This document shows positions 3,002 to 12,395 of a stretch of 45,088 nt of DNA, piece after piece (position 1 is the first letter of the stretch; each line of letters begins with the position of its first letter). Source of the stretch: Ignavibacteria bacterium RIFCSPLOWO2_12_FULL_56_21 (GTDB lineage Bacteria > Bacteroidota > Ignavibacteria > UBA10030); the NCBI GenBank assembly GCA_001802945.1, contig MHAK01000114.1, positions 1-45,088 of the forward strand, read 5' to 3'. A model generated the notes under the pieces. It saw only the letters and a program-made list of their open reading frames with translations, made no database searches and had not been told where the DNA came from. A program made the translations under genes and the position numbers.

Positions 3002-4753
3002 TTAAGCTTCTCTCTGCTTAATATCCCTAATCTTCAGTTGTGGCACAACTTCCCCCTGGTACTCGTTCTCGTCCAGTGAGAATGCCAGGTCGATTCCTTT
3101 TGAGGCTGTTCGGACGAGGTCGATGTGTTTCCCCAAATTGAATCCAATCGCGTCGATGACATGGTTCCCCTTTCGCACCTTGAACTTCAGATGGTTCTTC
3201 CCGACGATGCGAGGGGAGCCGACGACTGCGACGTCCCGGACGGCAAAAACAGGACGCATGTTCTCCGGTCCGAACGGAGCGAACTGACCCAGGACCCGAA
3301 TGAATTTCGGGGAGATCTCACTGAGCGGGATTTCGGCGTCGATCCGAATCTCAGGAGTGAGAATCTCCTCCGTCAACACTTCGTCCGCAGACTTCTGGAA
3401 GGCATCCCGGAACTCTTCGACCCGGTCGAGCGCGACGGTCAATCCGGCCGCGTACTTGTGCCCGCCGAACTGAATGAGCTTGTCCTCGACCCGTTTCAAC
3501 GCTTCGTAGATGTTGAACCCGCTGACGCTTCGGGCCGAACCTTTGACAACGCCGTCGACCGTTGTCATCATGATCGTCGGTCGGTAATAACGCTCGACGA
3601 GGCGCGATGCGACGATGCCGATGACTCCCGGATGCCATTCGTCCTTGTGCAGAACGATCGTCGTGTCGTCCGCGGCAAGATGGTTGTCCACGATCTCTTG
3701 TGCCTGCGTGAAGGTCACTTCGTCGATCTTTCGCCGTTCGGAGTTCTCATGCTCGAGCACGCGGGCAAATTCCAGCGCGGATCCGTACGAATCACAGGCA
3801 AGCAGCTCCACGGCGCGGCGTGCGTCGCCGAGACGTCCGACGGCATTAATGCGCGGGGCAAGGACAAACACCGCCTGGCCGGACGAGATCCGTCCCGCAT
3901 GCATGCCGGCGATGTCGATGAGCGCCTGAATGCCCGGAACGGGCTCAGTGTTGAGAAGCTCAAAGCCGATCTTGACGATCGTACGATTCTCGCCCGTAAG
4001 CGGAACGATGTCCGCCGTCGTCGCGAGTGCGACATATTGGAGGTACTTGCGAAGGGGGTCTCCCTCGGTGTGCTCAAGCTTGGCACGGAACTCGTCGACG
4101 GTCGCCAATGCCTGAACGAGCTTGAACGCGACGCCCGCCCCGCACAGCGATTTATACGGATACGTGCAGTGCTCCTGGATGGGGTCGAGTATGGCAACGG
4201 CGGCCGGCGCTCCGTGTCCCGGCTCGTGATGGTCGCACACGACAACGTCGATGCGCGCCGCTGTTGCTGCGGCGATCTGCGTCCCCGCAGTAATGCCACA
4301 ATCGACGGTGACGATCAGAGAAGGATGAAATTCTTTTGCCCGCTCCAGTCCCGCGAGCGACAGGCCGTACCCTTCCTTCTGGCGGTCGGGGATGAAGTAC
4401 GAAACATCCGCACCGATGCTCTTGAGGAACGTCCAGAGAATGGTCGTCCCGTTTGTCCCGTCAACGTCGTAGTCGCCGTAGACAAGGATCTTCTCGTTCG
4501 ACCGGATCGCGCGTGAGATCCGTTCCACCGCCTTGTCCATCCCCGACATCAGGAAGGGATCGTGCAAGTCGGCGATCTCCGGCCGGAAGAAGCTGCGCGA
4601 CTTTTCAAAGCTGTCGATCCCGCGCCGAACGAGGATATCGGCAAGAACGGGGGAGACAGTGAGCTCATCGGAGAGCTTTTTGACGATCGCCAGATGGTCG
4701 GGGGAACTATCGGCTTCGGCAAGTTTCCAGCGGTATGAACGTACAGAGGTCAT
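3002..4753 (-). CDS. recJ: Single-stranded-DNA-specific exonuclease RecJ
   Basis: RecJ is a 5'-3' single-strand exonuclease acting in recombination and mismatch or base-excision repair. The 583-residue protein shows the DHH phosphoesterase motifs in order: DYDVDG (94-99), VDCGI (150-154), CDHHEPG (173-179), then GAGVAFKL, and a DHHA1 domain with GGHKYAAG. The C-terminal part is the RecJ OB-fold. The frame stays open upstream to 5116, but that extension runs through the RNase P RNA gene, so the ATG at 4753 (MTSVRSYRW) is preferred. It sits directly upstream of the ruvC hairpin on the same strand. Confidence 0.97.
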   Translation of the reverse strand: MTSVRSYRWKLAEADSSPDHLAIVKKLSDELTVSPVLADILVRRGIDSFEKSRSFFRPEIADLHDPFLMSGMDKAVERISRAIRSNEKILVYGDYDVDGTNGTTILWTFLKSIGADVSYFIPDRQKEGYGLSLAGLERAKEFHPSLIVTVDCGITAGTQIAAATAARIDVVVCDHHEPGHGAPAAVAILDPIQEHCTYPYKSLCGAGVAFKLVQALATVDEFRAKLEHTEGDPLRKYLQYVALATTADIVPLTGENRTIVKIGFELLNTEPVPGIQALIDIAGMHAGRISSGQAVFVLAPRINAVGRLGDARRAVELLACDSYGSALEFARVLEHENSERRKIDEVTFTQAQEIVDNHLAADDTTIVLHKDEWHPGVIGIVASRLVERYYRPTIMMTTVDGVVKGSARSVSGFNIYEALKRVEDKLIQFGGHKYAAGLTVALDRVEEFRDAFQKSADEVLTEEILTPEIRIDAEIPLSEISPKFIRVLGQFAPFGPENMRPVFAVRDVAVVGSPRIVGKNHLKFKVRKGNHVIDAIGFNLGKHIDLVRTASKGIDLAFSLDENEYQGEVVPQLKIRDIKQREA

Positions 4754-4878
4754 GTTGAATGACTGAATGGAAGTTGAACTACGGGGGGACAAAGTCCCGC
4801 ACATGTCTGGCTCTCTCATCCCGCCAGCTGTGCGTCGCGGGGGAAAAATTCGATATCCAACTACCTCTTTTCTCAGAT

Positions 4879-5348
4879 GACACCGGACGCCGTCTGTAAG
4901 CCGAATTCTGTCTTTCCCAACGTTGCCGTCGGGAGAGGCAGCCATTTCTCTCATGCGACCTACCCGTTCCGTTTCCCGTCCGAAGACGGAAGTTGCGCGG
5001 GCAGCGCTTCCTTCGCCGAAGCGAAGAACGGAACTTACGTGGTCTTGCACCGGGCGGGGTTTATCGTGTTTCGCGCGTCTTGCGACATGCAAAATCCCTT
5101 TCGGGACCTGCTTCATTACTGAAGCAGCGGTGGTCTCTTACACCACCTTTTCACCCTTCCCCCTTCGACTCGTGCGCCTTTCAGCGCACTCGCTCAGGGG
5201 AGGTTGTTTTCTGTGACACTATCCGTTCCGCCGGGATGTGGCCCGACGGACCCCCGTTTTCACGGGGCGCCCTGCCCTGCGGTGTTCGGACTTTCCTCCC
5301 CGCCCGTCCGAAGACGAACGGAGCGGCTGCCCGACGGCACCCGGCTCG
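4879..5348 (-). ncRNA. rnpB: RNase P RNA, bacterial type
   Basis: This is the catalytic RNA that matures tRNA 5' ends. On the minus strand GAGGAAAGTCCGAACACC (plus 5298-5281) is the conserved 5' P4 region, and ACAGAATTCGGCTTACAG (4911-4894) is the conserved 3' end. Helix P1 forms between CCGGGTGCCGTC (5344-5333) and GACGGCGTCCGG, twelve pairs with two wobbles, which fixes the termini to within a few bases. At about 470 nt it is long for a type A molecule, through extended GC-rich arms. No convincing intrinsic terminator follows; a small GGGACTTTGTCCC hairpin lies near 4785-4800. Confidence 0.95.
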
Positions 5349-6730: not shown

Positions 6731-7837
6731 CTACATCGATTGCACAGGGTTTGTCACTACGCGGGTGATATACACATTCAGTCGTTCGTGTCGTTCCGCG
6801 GCGGACTCCCGCAGCCGGCGCGCAAGCGGTTCAAGGATCACATGTTCGGTTTCCCAATGTCCCGCATCGATCAATGCCATCGACGCCGGCACATCATGCC
6901 AGGTGTGATAGGTTACGTCGGCGGTGACAAAGACGTCGGCGCCCGACTTGGCCGCAGCCGTGATAAGGTCGCTGCCGCTGCCGCCGCAGACTGCCACGCG
7001 CTGTACGATGCGATGTGCATCGCCGCAAAACCGTACGCTGTCGGCCTTGAGATGGCGCTGCACGGAGCGCAGAAAAGCGCCGAGCGTTTGCGGGTGCGGC
7101 AACATGCCAACTGCCCCCATTCCGTATCCGGCCTCGGGCGTGTCCACCGGATAGACATCGTATGCCATCTCCTCGTACGGGTGCACGGCGCGTACGCGTT
7201 CGACCGTCTCACGCACGCGAGCGCGAGGAACGATGGCTTCGATGCGGAGTTCCTCCGTCGATTCGAGCGACCCGCGGGTGCCCATGAAGGGGTCTGCCTG
7301 CCGCGTCGGCAGGAATGTGCCGACCCCGGGCGTGCGAAACGAACAATGTGTGTAGTTGCCGATCTCGCCGGCGCCGGCGGAAGCGAATGCCCGTAGAACG
7401 TCCTCCTCGTGACCGGGAGGGACGAAGACGGCAATTTTCGCGAGGACGCCTTCCAGCGGCGCAAGGAATCGGATGTCGCGAAGGCCGAGCGTCTTTGACA
7501 GTGCGAAACTGACGCCGTCGCGCGTAACGTCGAGGTTCGTATGGGCCGAGTAAACGGCGATCTTCCGTTCGGCGCATTCGAGCGCGAGCCGTCCCGTAGA
7601 GCTGCCGGGCGTCAACGTGCGGGGAGGCCGGAACATGAGCGGATGATGCGTGACGAGCAGGTCCGCATTTCTCCGGACCGCTTCAGCGATGACTCGGTCC
7701 GTTACTTCCAAGGCGACACCGACAGTGCGGACTGTGCGGCCAGGATCTCCAACTTGTAATCCGACGTTGTCCCGCTCCCATGCAGTCCAGCGGGGGGCCC
7801 ACGCCTCTACGATATGTTCGATGTCGGAGATCCGCAT
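6731..7837 (-). CDS. NIF3-family (YqfO-like) metal-binding protein
   Basis: The 368-residue product is the long form of the NIF3/DUF34 family, sometimes annotated as a GTP cyclohydrolase 1 type 2 homologue. Metal ligands are visible: the HH pair in LLVTHHPLMF (64-65), His99/Asp103 in SAHTNLDV, and the His and Glu of DAGHWETEH near the C-terminus. The middle segment, about 130-235, corresponds to the PII-like insert typical of bacterial YqfO. The biochemical role of the family is still unclear. It is the first gene of the run with the zinc-ribbon and RNase HI-like genes, 21 bases upstream of the former. Confidence 0.93.
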   Translation of the reverse strand: MRISDIEHIVEAWAPRWTAWERDNVGLQVGDPGRTVRTVGVALEVTDRVIAEAVRRNADLLVTHHPLMFRPPRTLTPGSSTGRLALECAERKIAVYSAHTNLDVTRDGVSFALSKTLGLRDIRFLAPLEGVLAKIAVFVPPGHEEDVLRAFASAGAGEIGNYTHCSFRTPGVGTFLPTRQADPFMGTRGSLESTEELRIEAIVPRARVRETVERVRAVHPYEEMAYDVYPVDTPEAGYGMGAVGMLPHPQTLGAFLRSVQRHLKADSVRFCGDAHRIVQRVAVCGGSGSDLITAAAKSGADVFVTADVTYHTWHDVPASMALIDAGHWETEHVILEPLARRLRESAAERHERLNVYITRVVTNPVQSM

Positions 7838-7980: not shown

Positions 7981-8016
7981 TAAAAAACGGTGTCCCGCCT
8001 TTGGGGGGCGGGACAC
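7981..8016 (-). terminator. Intrinsic terminator of the receiver-DHp gene
   Basis: A perfect ten-pair stem GTGTCCCGCC (7990-7999) / GGCGGGACAC (8007-8016) with a seven-base loop. Read on the minus strand it is followed by a run of T residues (complement of 7982-7987). It lies about 150 bases after the stop of the gene at 8164, in the right orientation to end that transcript. Confidence 0.88.
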
Positions 8017-8163: not shown

Positions 8164-8886
8164 TCAACCGCTTTTGTTCCGTTTTCCGTCCGTAGCGTTC
8201 ACCCGTCCGTATTCAACGCGCTCGAAATTAAGGTCGCGAAGTCGGACAATTTCCCCCTCGATCTTTTTGAAGGAATCGTCGAACTTCTCAAGGAGAACCC
8301 GGTCGTCGGGCGAAATAAGCATTCGTTCCACGAGGTCCGCGCTGATCTTGATGGCGGCGAGCGGGTTGTTGAATTCGTGGCAAAGTGTCACAACGAGTTC
8401 CTTGATCGCCTGGGCGCGGCCTTCCGCCATCGTCATTCGTTTCTCAACTGCGTCGAGCTGACGCCTGGTGCGGATTCGTTCGAGCACATTGACGAGCGTT
8501 TTTCCAAGATGCGCTTCGGGAAGGTCTTCTTTGACGATGAAATCTTCTACACCGAGTTTCATGGCGTCGATCGCCAGCTTGAAATCCCGTACGCCCGTCA
8601 GAAAAATGATCGGAATCTGAAGTCCGCGCTCGTTGAGACGAAGGCAAAAGTCGAGGCCGTTCGAGGCGGGAAAATTATAGTCCGTCAGAATGATGTCGTA
8701 GCCGCTGTTCTTGGACAGCTCAGTCAGGGCATCGGCCACCCGTTCCTTCCATGTCAAATGGAATTCCCGGGCCTGGTAACGTTGCAGGTGGTGTTCGACG
8801 ATCTTGACGAAATTCGCGTCATCATCGACCATCAACACTTCAATCGGTCGGGACCCGATTTGGTCGGATTCTTCCATGGGAAACAT
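8164..8886 (-). CDS. Receiver domain fused to a histidine-kinase DHp domain, no ATPase domain
   Basis: Residues 14-135 form a CheY-like receiver: Asp21/Asp22, phosphoacceptor Asp69 (ILTDYNFP), Thr97 and Lys119. A coiled linker leads to a dimerisation/phosphotransfer helix with the H-box CHEFNNPLAAIK (His170). The protein ends at residue 240, about 50 residues after the H-box region, with no N, G1 or G2 boxes, and a terminator follows, so this is not an obvious frameshift. It may act as a phosphotransfer protein or phosphatase. It is divergent from an orphan receiver and an NtrC-type regulator, its likely partners. ATG 8886 is used; ATG 8877 is also possible. Confidence 0.9.
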   Translation of the reverse strand: MFPMEESDQIGSRPIEVLMVDDDANFVKIVEHHLQRYQAREFHLTWKERVADALTELSKNSGYDIILTDYNFPASNGLDFCLRLNERGLQIPIIFLTGVRDFKLAIDAMKLGVEDFIVKEDLPEAHLGKTLVNVLERIRTRRQLDAVEKRMTMAEGRAQAIKELVVTLCHEFNNPLAAIKISADLVERMLISPDDRVLLEKFDDSFKKIEGEIVRLRDLNFERVEYGRVNATDGKRNKSG

Positions 8887-8942
8887 ATGGTACAGGAAGA
8901 TTGACTGACTGTCAATCCGTCAGTCGAAACCCTCACAGCCAA

Positions 8943-8973
8943 TTGCTTTTGCGGTCGATTCTTTCTATGTTCA
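8943..8973 (+). promoter_or_regulatory. Bacteroidetes-type promoter for the receiver/NtrC genes
   Basis: TTGCT (8943-8947), an 18-base spacer and TATGTTCA (8966-8973) match the -33 TTG and -7 TAnnTTTG pattern in six of the informative positions. It precedes the ATG at 9031 by 57 bases. The same TTG-to-TA spacing is found at four other intergenic sites in this window. A small inverted repeat GACTGAC/GTCAGTC lies just upstream, around 8903-8926. Confidence 0.6.
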
Positions 8974-9030
8974 CGCCTGTTCGTAAAGACGTTCATACAC
9001 TCCGGAAGCAGTCAGGCCGGGAGAGGCCAC

Positions 9031-9402
9031 ATGCCCGCCAAAAACCGCATATTGGTAGTCGACGACGAGGAGGCGCTCAGGACAGTCCTGAGTTCTGAAC
9101 TCGAAGGGGAAGGATACAGCGTTCGCAGCGCCGCGGACGGTCAGGAAGCCATCACGCAGCTGACCGGCACGGAGTTCGACCTTGTCCTGCTTGACATCAA
9201 GATGCCGAATGTCGACGGCTTCGAAGTCCTGAAGTTCGTCAAGGAACGCCACCCGAAGACCAAAGTGGTCATGCTCACCGGGTTTGCCGACCTGAAGAAC
9301 GCGATCGAGTCGAAAAAACTTGGCGCGGAAGATTTTGTCAGTAAACCCTACGATCTCGTCGACCTCCTGACCACCGTGGAGCGCGTGCTGACGAACGATT
9401 GA
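9031..9402 (+). CDS. Single-domain response regulator (receiver only)
   Basis: The 123-residue protein is a CheY-like receiver and nothing more. It has Asp11/Asp12, phosphoacceptor Asp55 (LLDIKMP), Thr83 and Lys105. Without an output domain it probably passes a phosphate along a relay or acts by protein contact. It is followed 26 bases later by an NtrC-type regulator whose own receiver is clearly similar (LLDIRMP, GMEVLKFIKE versus GFEVLKFVKE), so the pair may have arisen by duplication. The divergent receiver-DHp protein could exchange phosphate with it. It is transcribed from the promoter at 8943. Confidence 0.92.
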   Translation: MPAKNRILVVDDEEALRTVLSSELEGEGYSVRSAADGQEAITQLTGTEFDLVLLDIKMPNVDGFEVLKFVKERHPKTKVVMLTGFADLKNAIESKKLGAEDFVSKPYDLVDLLTTVERVLTND

Positions 9403-9428
9403 GCCGCGAACCGCTATGACCCCCAGTG

Positions 9429-10790
9429 ATGGCCGGAACGTATCACATCCTCCTCGTTGACGACGAAGAGTCCGTCACCTACCTGCTGCAAACCGAATTT
9501 CAGGAATTCCCCGAATTCTCCGTCGACGCTGCGCAGAACGGCACGGATGCGATGAACCTGGTGCGTTCGCGCGTCTACGACGTCGCGTTGCTCGACATTC
9601 GCATGCCCCGCATCTCGGGCATGGAGGTTCTCAAGTTCATCAAGGAGGTCAGTCCGACCACGCAGGTCATCATGCTGACCGCCCAGGCGGACATGAAGAA
9701 CGCGATCGAAGCGACCCGGCTTGGGGCCTACGATTTCCTCGGCAAGCCGTATGAGATCGATCATCTTCTGACATCCGTCCGGAGGGCGCTGGAACACCGG
9801 CACCTGCTGATCGACAAGGAGGTCAGCCAGACCAGCCGGCCCATCGACATTATCGGCGGCAGCAAGTCCCTCACCGATACCATCGCGAATGCACGAAAGA
9901 TCGCCGCAAGCGAAGCGTTCGTCCTGATCCAGGGGGAGAGCGGCACGGGAAAGGAATTGTTCGCACAGCTCATTCACCGCGAAAGCGGCAGGCGGCATTT
10001 GCCGTTCATCGCCGTCAATTGTGCCGCAATGCCCGACCAGCTGCTGGAAAGCGAGCTGTTCGGACACGAAAAGGGGTCGTTCACGAGCGCCATCAAAACA
10101 AAACAGGGGCTCGTGGAAGTGGCCAGCGGCGGAACGCTGTTCCTCGACGAGGTCGGCGACATCAGTCCGCTCGTCCAGCCAAAGCTGCTCCGGTTCCTTG
10201 AGACCGGGGAGTTTCGGCGTGTCGGCGGAACGAATTCGCGCACCGTTGACGTGCGGGTGATCTCGGCGACGAACAAGAACCTTCAGGAGGAAGTTCGGGC
10301 CGGACGTTTTCGCGACGACCTTCTCTATCGGTTGAACGTCGTCAGCCTTCGCCTTCCGCCGTTGCGGGAGCGAAAGGAGGACATTCCACTCCTCGTTGAA
10401 CATTTTCTCCAGCGGAAGACTCGGACCAAGCGTATCGGCCCGGGCACGACGGAAGTGCTCACGAACTACGACTGGCCGGGCAACGTTCGGGAGCTCGAGC
10501 ATGTCATCGAAGGGGCGATTGCGCTTGCTCATTCGGATGTGATCGAACCCAAAGATCTGTGGATGAACGTATCGCTCCATCGTCAGAGCGTCGAGGAAAA
10601 ACCTGAAAATGCGCCCGGCTCCATAGAACCTGAATCACTTGAAGAGGTTGAACGCCGGCATATTGAGAAAATTCTCCGCGCCAACAACTGGAACCGTGCG
10701 AAATCCGCACAAATATTGGGCATAACGGCCAAAACCCTCTATCTAAAGATAAAGCGGTACAAACTCATTGAGCCCAGCAACGGCCAATAG
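9429..10790 (+). CDS. NtrC-family response regulator (receiver, AAA+, HTH) with altered GAFTGA loop
   Basis: The 453-residue protein has a receiver (phosphoacceptor Asp56 in LLDIRMP), an AAA+ domain with Walker A GESGTGKE (169-176) and Walker B LFLDE (237-241), an arginine-finger region, and a C-terminal Fis-type HTH (about 423-445). The loop that contacts sigma-54 reads GSFTSA (216-221) instead of GAFTGA; Ser for the second Gly is unusual and may weaken or abolish sigma-54 activation. The start is ATG 9429, with GTG 9426 directly before it as an alternative. It follows the single receiver gene and is probably co-transcribed. Confidence 0.95.
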   Translation: MAGTYHILLVDDEESVTYLLQTEFQEFPEFSVDAAQNGTDAMNLVRSRVYDVALLDIRMPRISGMEVLKFIKEVSPTTQVIMLTAQADMKNAIEATRLGAYDFLGKPYEIDHLLTSVRRALEHRHLLIDKEVSQTSRPIDIIGGSKSLTDTIANARKIAASEAFVLIQGESGTGKELFAQLIHRESGRRHLPFIAVNCAAMPDQLLESELFGHEKGSFTSAIKTKQGLVEVASGGTLFLDEVGDISPLVQPKLLRFLETGEFRRVGGTNSRTVDVRVISATNKNLQEEVRAGRFRDDLLYRLNVVSLRLPPLRERKEDIPLLVEHFLQRKTRTKRIGPGTTEVLTNYDWPGNVRELEHVIEGAIALAHSDVIEPKDLWMNVSLHRQSVEEKPENAPGSIEPESLEEVERRHIEKILRANNWNRAKSAQILGITAKTLYLKIKRYKLIEPSNGQ

Positions 10791-11225: not shown

Positions 11226-12395
11226 ATGCCGCACTTTCACGGTGTAGACTACTTCAATACCGATTCACTTTTGTCGGAAGATGAACGGATGGTGCGGGAC
11301 ACCGTCCGGGAATTCGTTGACGATAACGTCATACCGGTCATCGAAAAGCACTATCGGGAAGGCACGTTCCCGATGAGCCTCGTCGGAAAGATGGCCGAGC
11401 TGGGCCTGTTTGGATCCACGCTTCCCGCGAAATACGGCTGCGCCGAAATGAACAACGTCGCGTACGGCCTGGTCATGCAGGAGCTCGAACGGGGCGACAG
11501 CGGCGTCCGTTCGTTTGCCTCTGTCCAGAGCGGATTGGTGATGTATCCCATCTTCACGTTCGGCACGGAAGAGCAAAAGGACCGCTGGCTTCCAAAGCTT
11601 GCCAAAGGAGAGGCCATCGGTTGTTTTGGTCTGACCGAGCCGGACTACGGCTCGAATCCCGGCGGCATGGTAACCCGGGCGGAAAAGAAGAACGGCGGAT
11701 ATGTCCTGAACGGCGCCAAAATGTGGATCACCAACGGAACAATAGCAGATCTGGCGGTTGTCTGGGCGAAGCTGGAAGGGGAGATCAGGGGATTTTTGGT
11801 GGAAAAAGGGGCGAAGGGATTCGCAGCCCCCGAAATGAAGGGGAAACATTCACTGCGAGCCTCCGTGACTTCCGAGCTTGTGTTCCAGGACTGCTGGATT
11901 CCGGAGGCGAACCGCATGCCGAAGGCCGAAGGGCTCAAAGCTCCGCTGATGTGTCTTAGTCAGGCACGGTACGGAATTGCGTGGGGCGCGATCGGATCGG
12001 CAATGGCCACGTACGACGCGGCGCTCACGTATGCAAAGTCGCGTATCCAATTCGACAAACCGATCGCGGCATTCCAGTTGACGCAGGAGAAGCTCGTGCA
12101 CATGGTGAACGAGATCACCAAGGGTCAACTGTTGTGCCTCCACCTTGGACGATTGAAGGACCAAGGGAAGGCGAAATTCACTCAGATTTCATTGGCGAAA
12201 CGGAACAACGTGTTTCATGCCCTGGAGATCGCCCGCATGGCGCGCGAGATCCTTGGAGCGAACGGTATTCTTGACGAGTACCCGGTCATGCGTCACAGCG
12301 CCAACCTCGAATCGGTCAAGACGTACGAGGGAACGCACGAAATGCATACGCTGATCGTGGGGGAAGACATAACCGGGATCGCCGCGTTTCAGTGA
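11226..12395 (+). CDS. Acyl-CoA dehydrogenase, glutaryl-CoA dehydrogenase type
   Basis: This FAD enzyme is predicted to oxidise and decarboxylate glutaryl-CoA to crotonyl-CoA in lysine/tryptophan breakdown. The 389 residues carry GCDH hallmarks: DSGVRSFASVQSGLVM (91-106), GCFGLTEPDYGSNPGG (132-147) and the catalytic Glu368 in TYEGTHEMHTLIVGEDITG. The YEGTH...ITGI ending separates this group from short-chain dehydrogenases. It is a single gene with its own promoter (11111) and leader hairpin. Use of a related dicarboxyl-CoA cannot be excluded. Confidence 0.9.
   Translation: MPHFHGVDYFNTDSLLSEDERMVRDTVREFVDDNVIPVIEKHYREGTFPMSLVGKMAELGLFGSTLPAKYGCAEMNNVAYGLVMQELERGDSGVRSFASVQSGLVMYPIFTFGTEEQKDRWLPKLAKGEAIGCFGLTEPDYGSNPGGMVTRAEKKNGGYVLNGAKMWITNGTIADLAVVWAKLEGEIRGFLVEKGAKGFAAPEMKGKHSLRASVTSELVFQDCWIPEANRMPKAEGLKAPLMCLSQARYGIAWGAIGSAMATYDAALTYAKSRIQFDKPIAAFQLTQEKLVHMVNEITKGQLLCLHLGRLKDQGKAKFTQISLAKRNNVFHALEIARMAREILGANGILDEYPVMRHSANLESVKTYEGTHEMHTLIVGEDITGIAAFQ

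Follow-up and report, generated by a model that had tools for sequence, protein, structure and literature searches.

A receiver-DHp protein without a kinase domain, conserved across most of an order of Ignavibacteria-type Bacteroidota, as a possible receiver-gated phosphotransferase

The window analysed here is a 45,088-nucleotide stretch of DNA from Ignavibacteria bacterium RIFCSPLOWO2_12_FULL_56_21 (contig MHAK01000114.1, positions 1 to 45,088), and the gene in question encodes a 240-residue protein, REC-DHp, in which a receiver is joined to a dimerisation and histidine phosphotransfer (DHp) hairpin and the chain then ends without a catalytic and ATP-binding (CA) domain. We propose, with a probability of about 0.45, that REC-DHp acts as a kinase-less, receiver-gated phosphotransferase between a single-domain receiver and an NtrC-type regulator, and probably also as a phosphatase, a reading that draws on comparisons of sequences and gene order. 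Because its shape and its usual pair of partners are kept across most of the order, the protein probably relays or removes phosphate and does not make it.

Domain anatomy of REC-DHp

A receiver with Asp69 comes first, a long helix leads on to a DHp hairpin of the HisKA type with His170, and there the protein stops; the features of the gene are as follows.

8164-8886, reverse strand: REC-DHp gene (family A), an open reading frame (ORF) with an ATG start, 240 residues, conserved across the order
8527-8838, reverse strand: receiver domain, residues 17-120, Pfam Response_reg at 1.8e-17
8416-8511, reverse strand: linker part of the long helix from receiver to DHp, residues 126-157, from the structure model
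8227-8415, reverse strand: DHp hairpin, residues 158-220, with the H-box CHEFNNPL, from Pfam HisKA and a DHp fold match
7990-8016, reverse strand: intrinsic terminator 3' of the gene, a perfect 10-bp stem with 8 G-C pairs, then CGTTTTTT

Asp69 is the GAC codon at 8680-8682 and His170 the CAC codon at 8377-8379 (both reverse strand), the latter within an H-box of the HExxN type (HEFNN), not HRxxN. The Pfam HisKA match covers residues 163-219 at 1.2e-5, scoring 25.7 bits in hmmscan, under the cut-off of 26.9, and 27.5 bits in the genome search, above it. Neither a HATPase_c (CA) domain nor an Hpt domain (PF01627) was found among Pfam matches up to E 1, and the Pfam scan gave no PAS or GAF match. 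Lacking a CA domain, REC-DHp is not a classic or hybrid histidine kinase, and it falls in the class of regulators that combine a receiver with HisKA and lack HATPase (PMC5847659).

The whole-protein structure model (predicted local distance difference test, pLDDT, 86; predicted TM-score, pTM, 0.68) comprises the receiver, a continuous helix (126-187) that bears the H-box and a second helix (193-217), beyond which a low-confidence tail without helix or strand runs to the end of the gene at residue 240. Because receivers filled the fold-search list of the whole model, the DHp part was folded alone (pLDDT 89.5); its best Foldseek matches are solved DHp domains, among them those of Arabidopsis ERS1 (TMq 0.83, root-mean-square deviation 1.4 Å), GacS and EnvZ, at modest E-values (best 8.7e-3, none below 0.001). 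Searched by sequence at E 0.01, the profile of the DHp part matched four PDB chains, each of which bears the name of a histidine kinase. ChpT and Spo0B appear neither among the best 50 fold matches nor among these four sequence matches, which in neither case is evidence of a different fold.

A sequence-only reading of the window had described an intact receiver (Asp69) and H-box (His170) with no ATPase domain, a strong terminator, and an orphan receiver and NtrC-type regulator encoded divergently. Pfam, the codons and the model bear out the first of these, the 10-bp stem at 8016-7990 the second, and the genes at 9031-9402 and 9426-10790 the third.

A fixed architecture across the order

The order sample consists of 61 genomes, the window's own included, of Ignavibacteria-type Bacteroidota as identified by contig titles. 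In a scan of named contigs 186 stretches encode a relative, and our counts cover the best 80, of which 74 carry the H-box (family A) and 6 belong to a sister family, B. Counts over the named contigs and over the 61 genomes are not independent of each other, since the two sets overlap (for example, L078 and G007:C16 are equally long contigs).

A profile of the DHp alone, which matches family A, finds REC-DHp at E 1e-12 in 53 of the 61 genomes, with one copy per genome except in G023, which has two fragments at contig ends. The whole-protein search at E 1e-20 finds relatives in 54, as family A, family B or other receiver-plus-tail paralogues. REC-DHp is missing from G030 and G054, from G034, G039 and G044 (all of family f4), and from G053, G035 and G059; in G030 and G054 the contig breaks off right at the single-domain receiver gene, and REC-DHp may simply be off the assembly. 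Across 296 genomes sampled evenly from the phylum, the DHp profile matches 16, all within the window's class, and the titles of the 80 stretches name Ignavibacteria and relatives, Bacteroidetes/Bacteroidota, Chlorobi and, once, Candidatus Kryptoniota, two saying only 'bacterium'.

Counted from where the H-box motif begins, all 74 H-box orthologues in the named contigs stop after 30-76 residues; L096 and L092, the shortest two, are cut by a contig end. The search for orthologues with the same domain end had been suggested in the sequence-only reading, which named a full ATPase domain in relatives as the sign of truncation here; none of the 74 has one. We accordingly reject a truncated or frameshifted hybrid kinase, a pseudogene or an assembly artefact, a reading whose probability we put close to nil: nothing was found in its favour, the CA domain is present in 0/74 H-box orthologues, and a terminator follows the gene. 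Since the same architecture recurs across the order, it is not a product of chance. That REC-DHp arose when a kinase in its own genome recently lost the CA domain likewise found no support in DHp profile scores, compared without a tree: REC-DHp scores 119.5 bits, five Kryptoniota-type/f10 loci included in the profile scan score 65.8-68.7, and nothing else encoded in the scanned loci of the window's genome scores above 26.1.

Conservation of the active site

Residues were counted in an alignment of 48 distinct orthologues, taken from the window's genome and related ones. Thr167, His170, Glu171, Phe172, Asn173, Asn174, Pro175, Leu176, Ala177 and Ala178 are invariant in all 48, as is Lys119 of the receiver; 46 of them retain Asp69. 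Within HisKA proteins, only the kinase reaction requires the acidic residue that follows the His, and only the phosphatase requires the Thr or Asn at His+4 (PMC3510030). The retention of Glu171 in a protein that lacks a CA domain speaks for phosphoryl chemistry on the His and not for a dead dimer, and the retention of both Glu171 and Asn174 would fit a bifunctional surface for transfer and phosphatase activity.

These residues bear on two alternatives. REC-DHp could be purely a phosphatase, gated by its receiver and acting on the NtrC-type regulator and perhaps also on the single-domain receiver, in effect an NtrB of which just the phosphatase half is left; the regulator would be charged by a kinase encoded elsewhere, and REC-DHp would set the off-rate through phosphorylation of its own receiver. 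This fits the data nearly as well as a phosphorelay does, and we consider it a distinct possibility: Asn is found at His+4 in 48/48, the NtrC-type gene adjoins REC-DHp in both the divergent and the Kryptoniota-type arrangements described below, and HisKA proteins without HATPase have previously been proposed as phosphatases (PMC5847659). For phosphatase activity, however, the residue after the His is dispensable and the His merely helpful, yet both are invariant here, and the activity of a DHp domain is greatly increased by the CA domain (PMC3510030). The invariance of Glu171, a residue of the kinase reaction, would also suit a split kinase, in which the CA domain of another protein phosphorylates His170 in trans. 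Such kinases are known (PMC3591291), and the genome holds 39 HATPase_c matches, three of them in short frames (161, 187 and 195 residues); no ATPase was identified among the conserved neighbours, in searches whose queries were six window genes and four paralogues and in which ATPases were not sought, and we regard this as a long shot.

A sister family that has lost the histidine

The nearest relative of REC-DHp in its own genome belongs to family B (C57, 36% identical), whose profile at E 1e-25 matches 55 of the 61 genomes, counting cross-matches to family A (the sole matches in G036 and G046). Among 17 aligned members the His is lost in 16, replaced by Gln, Asp, Gly, Lys, Asn, Ser or Ala, and the receiver Asp is kept in 16. 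The fold alone therefore does not force the His, and family B is a mirror image of the REC-DHp family, with the Asp kept and the His lost. At one locus examined (L068), the family B gene stands behind a PAS-GAF-HisKA-HATPase kinase and a single-domain receiver.

REC-DHp might accordingly be pictured as a response regulator that uses its hairpin just to dimerise or to hold partners, its His remaining unphosphorylated. Family B, with a receiver and a DHp-like region in which the His has gone, would suit such a role, as would two other proteins of the window's genome (C105, C26), in which the region C-terminal to a receiver lacks an H-box, and archaeal receiver-HisKA regulators have been proposed to work by dimerising and by protein contacts (PMC5847659). 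REC-DHp, unlike family B, keeps the His, the Glu at +1 and the Asn at +4 in 48/48, and we think this role improbable.

The family B members at L002, L058 and L062-L077 share a nearly invariant C-terminal stretch of the YIKDIKMIDLS type, absent from family A. Another protein of the window's genome, C41, has a receiver and a C-terminal tail with a His in a divergent motif and no Pfam HisKA match, and C127 encodes a full-length receiver-HisKA-HATPase protein (HisKA just under the cut-off) whose frame overlaps an NtrC-type gene. The same genome also encodes a 210-residue protein (C32, L242:3759-4388) with a HisKA match near the cut-off (HQINNPL) and no CA domain; its N-terminal half, read from a hydrophobic stretch, may span the membrane.

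Variability of the receiver faces

Column entropy was compared at 38 loci with all three genes. The single-domain receiver averages 0.55 bits, the NtrC receiver 0.91 and REC-DHp's own receiver 1.33; DHp residues 158-190, at 0.59 bits per column, lie far below the last. Of five presumed docking columns in helix 1, four are fixed (38/38) in the single-domain receiver and two of five near-fixed (36/37, 37/37) in the NtrC receiver, and REC-DHp's own receiver is variable at all five. This pattern suggests that a frozen DHp face meets two partner receivers, with REC-DHp's own receiver serving as input.

Neighbouring genes

The genes and sites around REC-DHp are listed here.

9031-9402, forward strand: single-domain receiver, 123 residues, Asp55 at 9193-9195, from Pfam; Asp55 in 69/69
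9426-10790, forward strand: NtrC-type regulator with receiver, AAA+ (Sigma54_activat) and Fis-type helix-turn-helix (HTH), from Pfam
8887-9030, no strand assigned: divergent promoter region between the REC-DHp and single-domain receiver genes, a sigma-70-like consensus match only (8915-8887, reverse strand)
6731-7837, reverse strand: NIF3/DUF34 gene, a conserved neighbour on the downstream side of REC-DHp and past its terminator
11226-12395, forward strand: acyl-CoA dehydrogenase-like gene, from NCBIfam matches all under their cut-offs

In the 74 named loci a divergent single-domain receiver stands beside REC-DHp in 53, a divergent NtrC-type gene in 52, and a NIF3 gene of the same orientation, at most 4 kb downstream, in 52. 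Ten Kryptoniota-type loci (L138-L141, L144-L148, L151) are arranged differently, the NtrC-type frame coming next on the same strand and overlapping or at most 16 bases away. Judged by this gene order, the tie to the NtrC-type gene is the firmest that REC-DHp has, though not absolute, and so conserved a neighbour places REC-DHp where an NtrB-type kinase would stand, minus the kinase part. NIF3/DUF34 is probably not part of the mechanism. A palindromic operator in the divergent intergenic region was considered and rejected, a single weak palindrome being all that it holds.

The single-domain receiver has a full-length best match 72-90% identical in 18 of the 23 genomes searched; of the other five, G030 has an 88% fragment at a contig start and G034, G039, G044 and G053 have no close match. 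Its sequence is nearly invariant from the switch Thr to the C-terminus, an unusual degree of conservation.

In the NtrC-type regulator the receiver Asp is Asp57 counted from the listed GTG, or Asp56 from an ATG one codon on, and is kept in 69/69. The protein has the receiver, AAA+ and HTH of an NtrC-type sigma-54 activator, with GSFTSA where GAFTGA is canonical; across 69 orthologues the fifth residue of this loop is Asn in 42, Ser in 16, Asp in 11 and never Gly. A motif search in loci of the window's genome picked up eight NtrC-type regulators, six of them with G[AS]FTGA and the only other exception being the C127 regulator, and a sigma-54 match is present in the genome.

Among the 37 named loci whose contig reaches far enough, 26 have the acyl-CoA dehydrogenase-like gene co-oriented with the NtrC-type gene and at most 2.2 kb downstream of it (at L143, one of the misses, a dehydrogenase-like gene overlaps the NtrC frame). 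The dehydrogenase-like gene also trails the NtrC-type gene where REC-DHp is absent or unlinked. It is a possible target, and its membership of the module is uncertain.

Elsewhere in the window a class A RNase P RNA lies at 4881-5342 (reverse strand, 184.5 bits). It overlaps the upstream end of ORF 3002-5116, which we take to be RecJ-like, and the real start of that frame is probably further in.

Proposed mechanism and points against it

In the phosphotransferase that we favour, kinases encoded elsewhere would charge the single-domain receiver (Asp55), REC-DHp's own receiver (Asp69) or both. His170 of a dimeric DHp hairpin would accept the phosphoryl group from the single-domain receiver and give it to the NtrC-type regulator (Asp57); when the signal is off, the same surface, through Asn174, would drain phosphate from both partners. 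REC-DHp's own receiver would switch the hairpin through the one continuous helix. The dimer, the direction of transfer, the feeding kinase and the gating are what we infer here. More tentatively, the protein may be seen as an inverted hybrid kinase at the core of an order-wide phosphorelay, in which a receiver-controlled bare DHp couples a near-frozen single-domain receiver to an NtrC-type regulator with an altered sigma-54 loop, with no dedicated kinase adjacent; families A and B would then be matched Asp-plus-His and Asp-only hubs.

Several observations weigh against a relay. Asp69 is replaced in two of the 48 orthologues (Asn in L048, Ser in L055), and Asn174, the phosphatase-only residue, is as invariant as His170 and Glu171. 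Of the stretches measured, the second DHp helix (191-220) varies most, at 1.79 bits, the low variation elsewhere stands without an ordinary-kinase control, and the five helix-1 docking columns are presumed ones, carried over from HK853-RR468 with the aid of rewired positions in a PDB title. The sequence-only reading had taken the neighbours for the likely partners, which gains from the conserved synteny and from the rearranged REC-DHp/NtrC pair of the ten Kryptoniota-type loci and loses from a minority of genomes in which the genes lie apart. An NtrC gene is absent beside REC-DHp in 12 of the 74 named loci, 5 of which have less than 1.2 kb of contig there. In five f3 genomes (G033, G043, G048, G052, G055) REC-DHp lies by NIF3, and the receiver, NtrC and dehydrogenase genes lie together elsewhere; in G002 the receiver and NtrC genes are on a different contig from REC-DHp. 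The single-domain receiver of Kryptoniota-type genomes is unlinked and 62-66% identical (5/5 searched), and G035 and G059 retain the receiver, NtrC and dehydrogenase genes without REC-DHp.

Comparison with known systems

P2CS lists HisKA-alone or HATPase-alone proteins as probable incomplete kinases, and HisKA or Hpt proteins without HATPase and receiver as phosphotransfer proteins (PMC2716373). HisKA proteins without an ATPase are thus usually filed as incomplete kinases (PMC2716373, PMC5847659), though 'incomplete' is not 'broken'. The architecture class of REC-DHp, receiver and HisKA without HATPase, is already known from archaeal regulators such as A. fulgidus AF_1472; these have PAS and/or GAF domains and are described as unstudied, their partners and function being unknown (PMC5847659). 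Unlike them, REC-DHp has no PAS or GAF, joins receiver to DHp by one helix, occurs in Bacteroidota and has conserved NtrC-type and single-domain-receiver neighbours. In the part of the literature covered by our searches we found neither the sensor-less receiver-DHp form, its order-wide fixation, these neighbours or the mirror paralogue, nor any experiments on a receiver-HisKA protein that lacks HATPase, and two-component signalling was absent from the titles found for Ignavibacteria. Order-wide conservation, recurring neighbours and an invariant active site make the function of a bare DHp directly testable, and with REC-DHp the kinase-derived phosphotransferases would gain a member that is gated by a receiver.

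LvrB of Leptospira, which we take to be a hybrid kinase of 382 residues with a CA domain, likewise has a receiver followed by HisKA. Its structure (PDB 8vc9) is the only chain matching both domains among the best 60 of 273 matched, and one of the four PDB chains matched by the DHp alone. NtrB, whose input domain is a PAS, resembles REC-DHp in placing a DHp beside an NtrC-type regulator; REC-DHp differs in having a receiver as input and no CA domain. The DHp of NtrB alone is a phosphatase (PMC3510030). NmpS of the Myxococcus pair NmpS/NmpR has, like REC-DHp, an N-terminal receiver on a HisKA protein acting on an NtrC-like regulator, but with a CA domain and proposed autophosphorylation it is a full-length counterpart (PMC11841059).

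ChpT (Caulobacter) and Spo0B (Bacillus) are dimeric and carry out DHp-based phosphotransfer between receivers without an autokinase, and the DHp-type hairpin of REC-DHp with its conserved His recalls them, so that the earlier phrase 'of the ChpT/Spo0B kind' holds in the sense of working alike. Neither is known to have a receiver. Spo0B has a Bergerat-like C-terminal domain. ChpT also retains an atypical Bergerat-fold C-terminal domain (PMC3433190). In both, this ATPase-like domain does not use ATP, and in this respect the phrase fails, since nothing of the sort is modelled after the hairpin of REC-DHp. The closest functional parallel of the proposed relay is probably the Pak-SdrG-PhyT-PhyR pathway of Sphingomonas, in which the degenerate kinase PhyT relays from the single-domain receiver SdrG to PhyR (PMC5898713). 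PhyT is likewise kinase-derived and encoded at the locus of the output regulator, a likeness in function only: it is membrane-bound, with HRxxN and a degenerate ATPase domain, where REC-DHp has HExxN, a receiver and no ATPase remnant (PMC5898713). ChpT, Spo0B and PhyT are functional parallels of REC-DHp and not its family.
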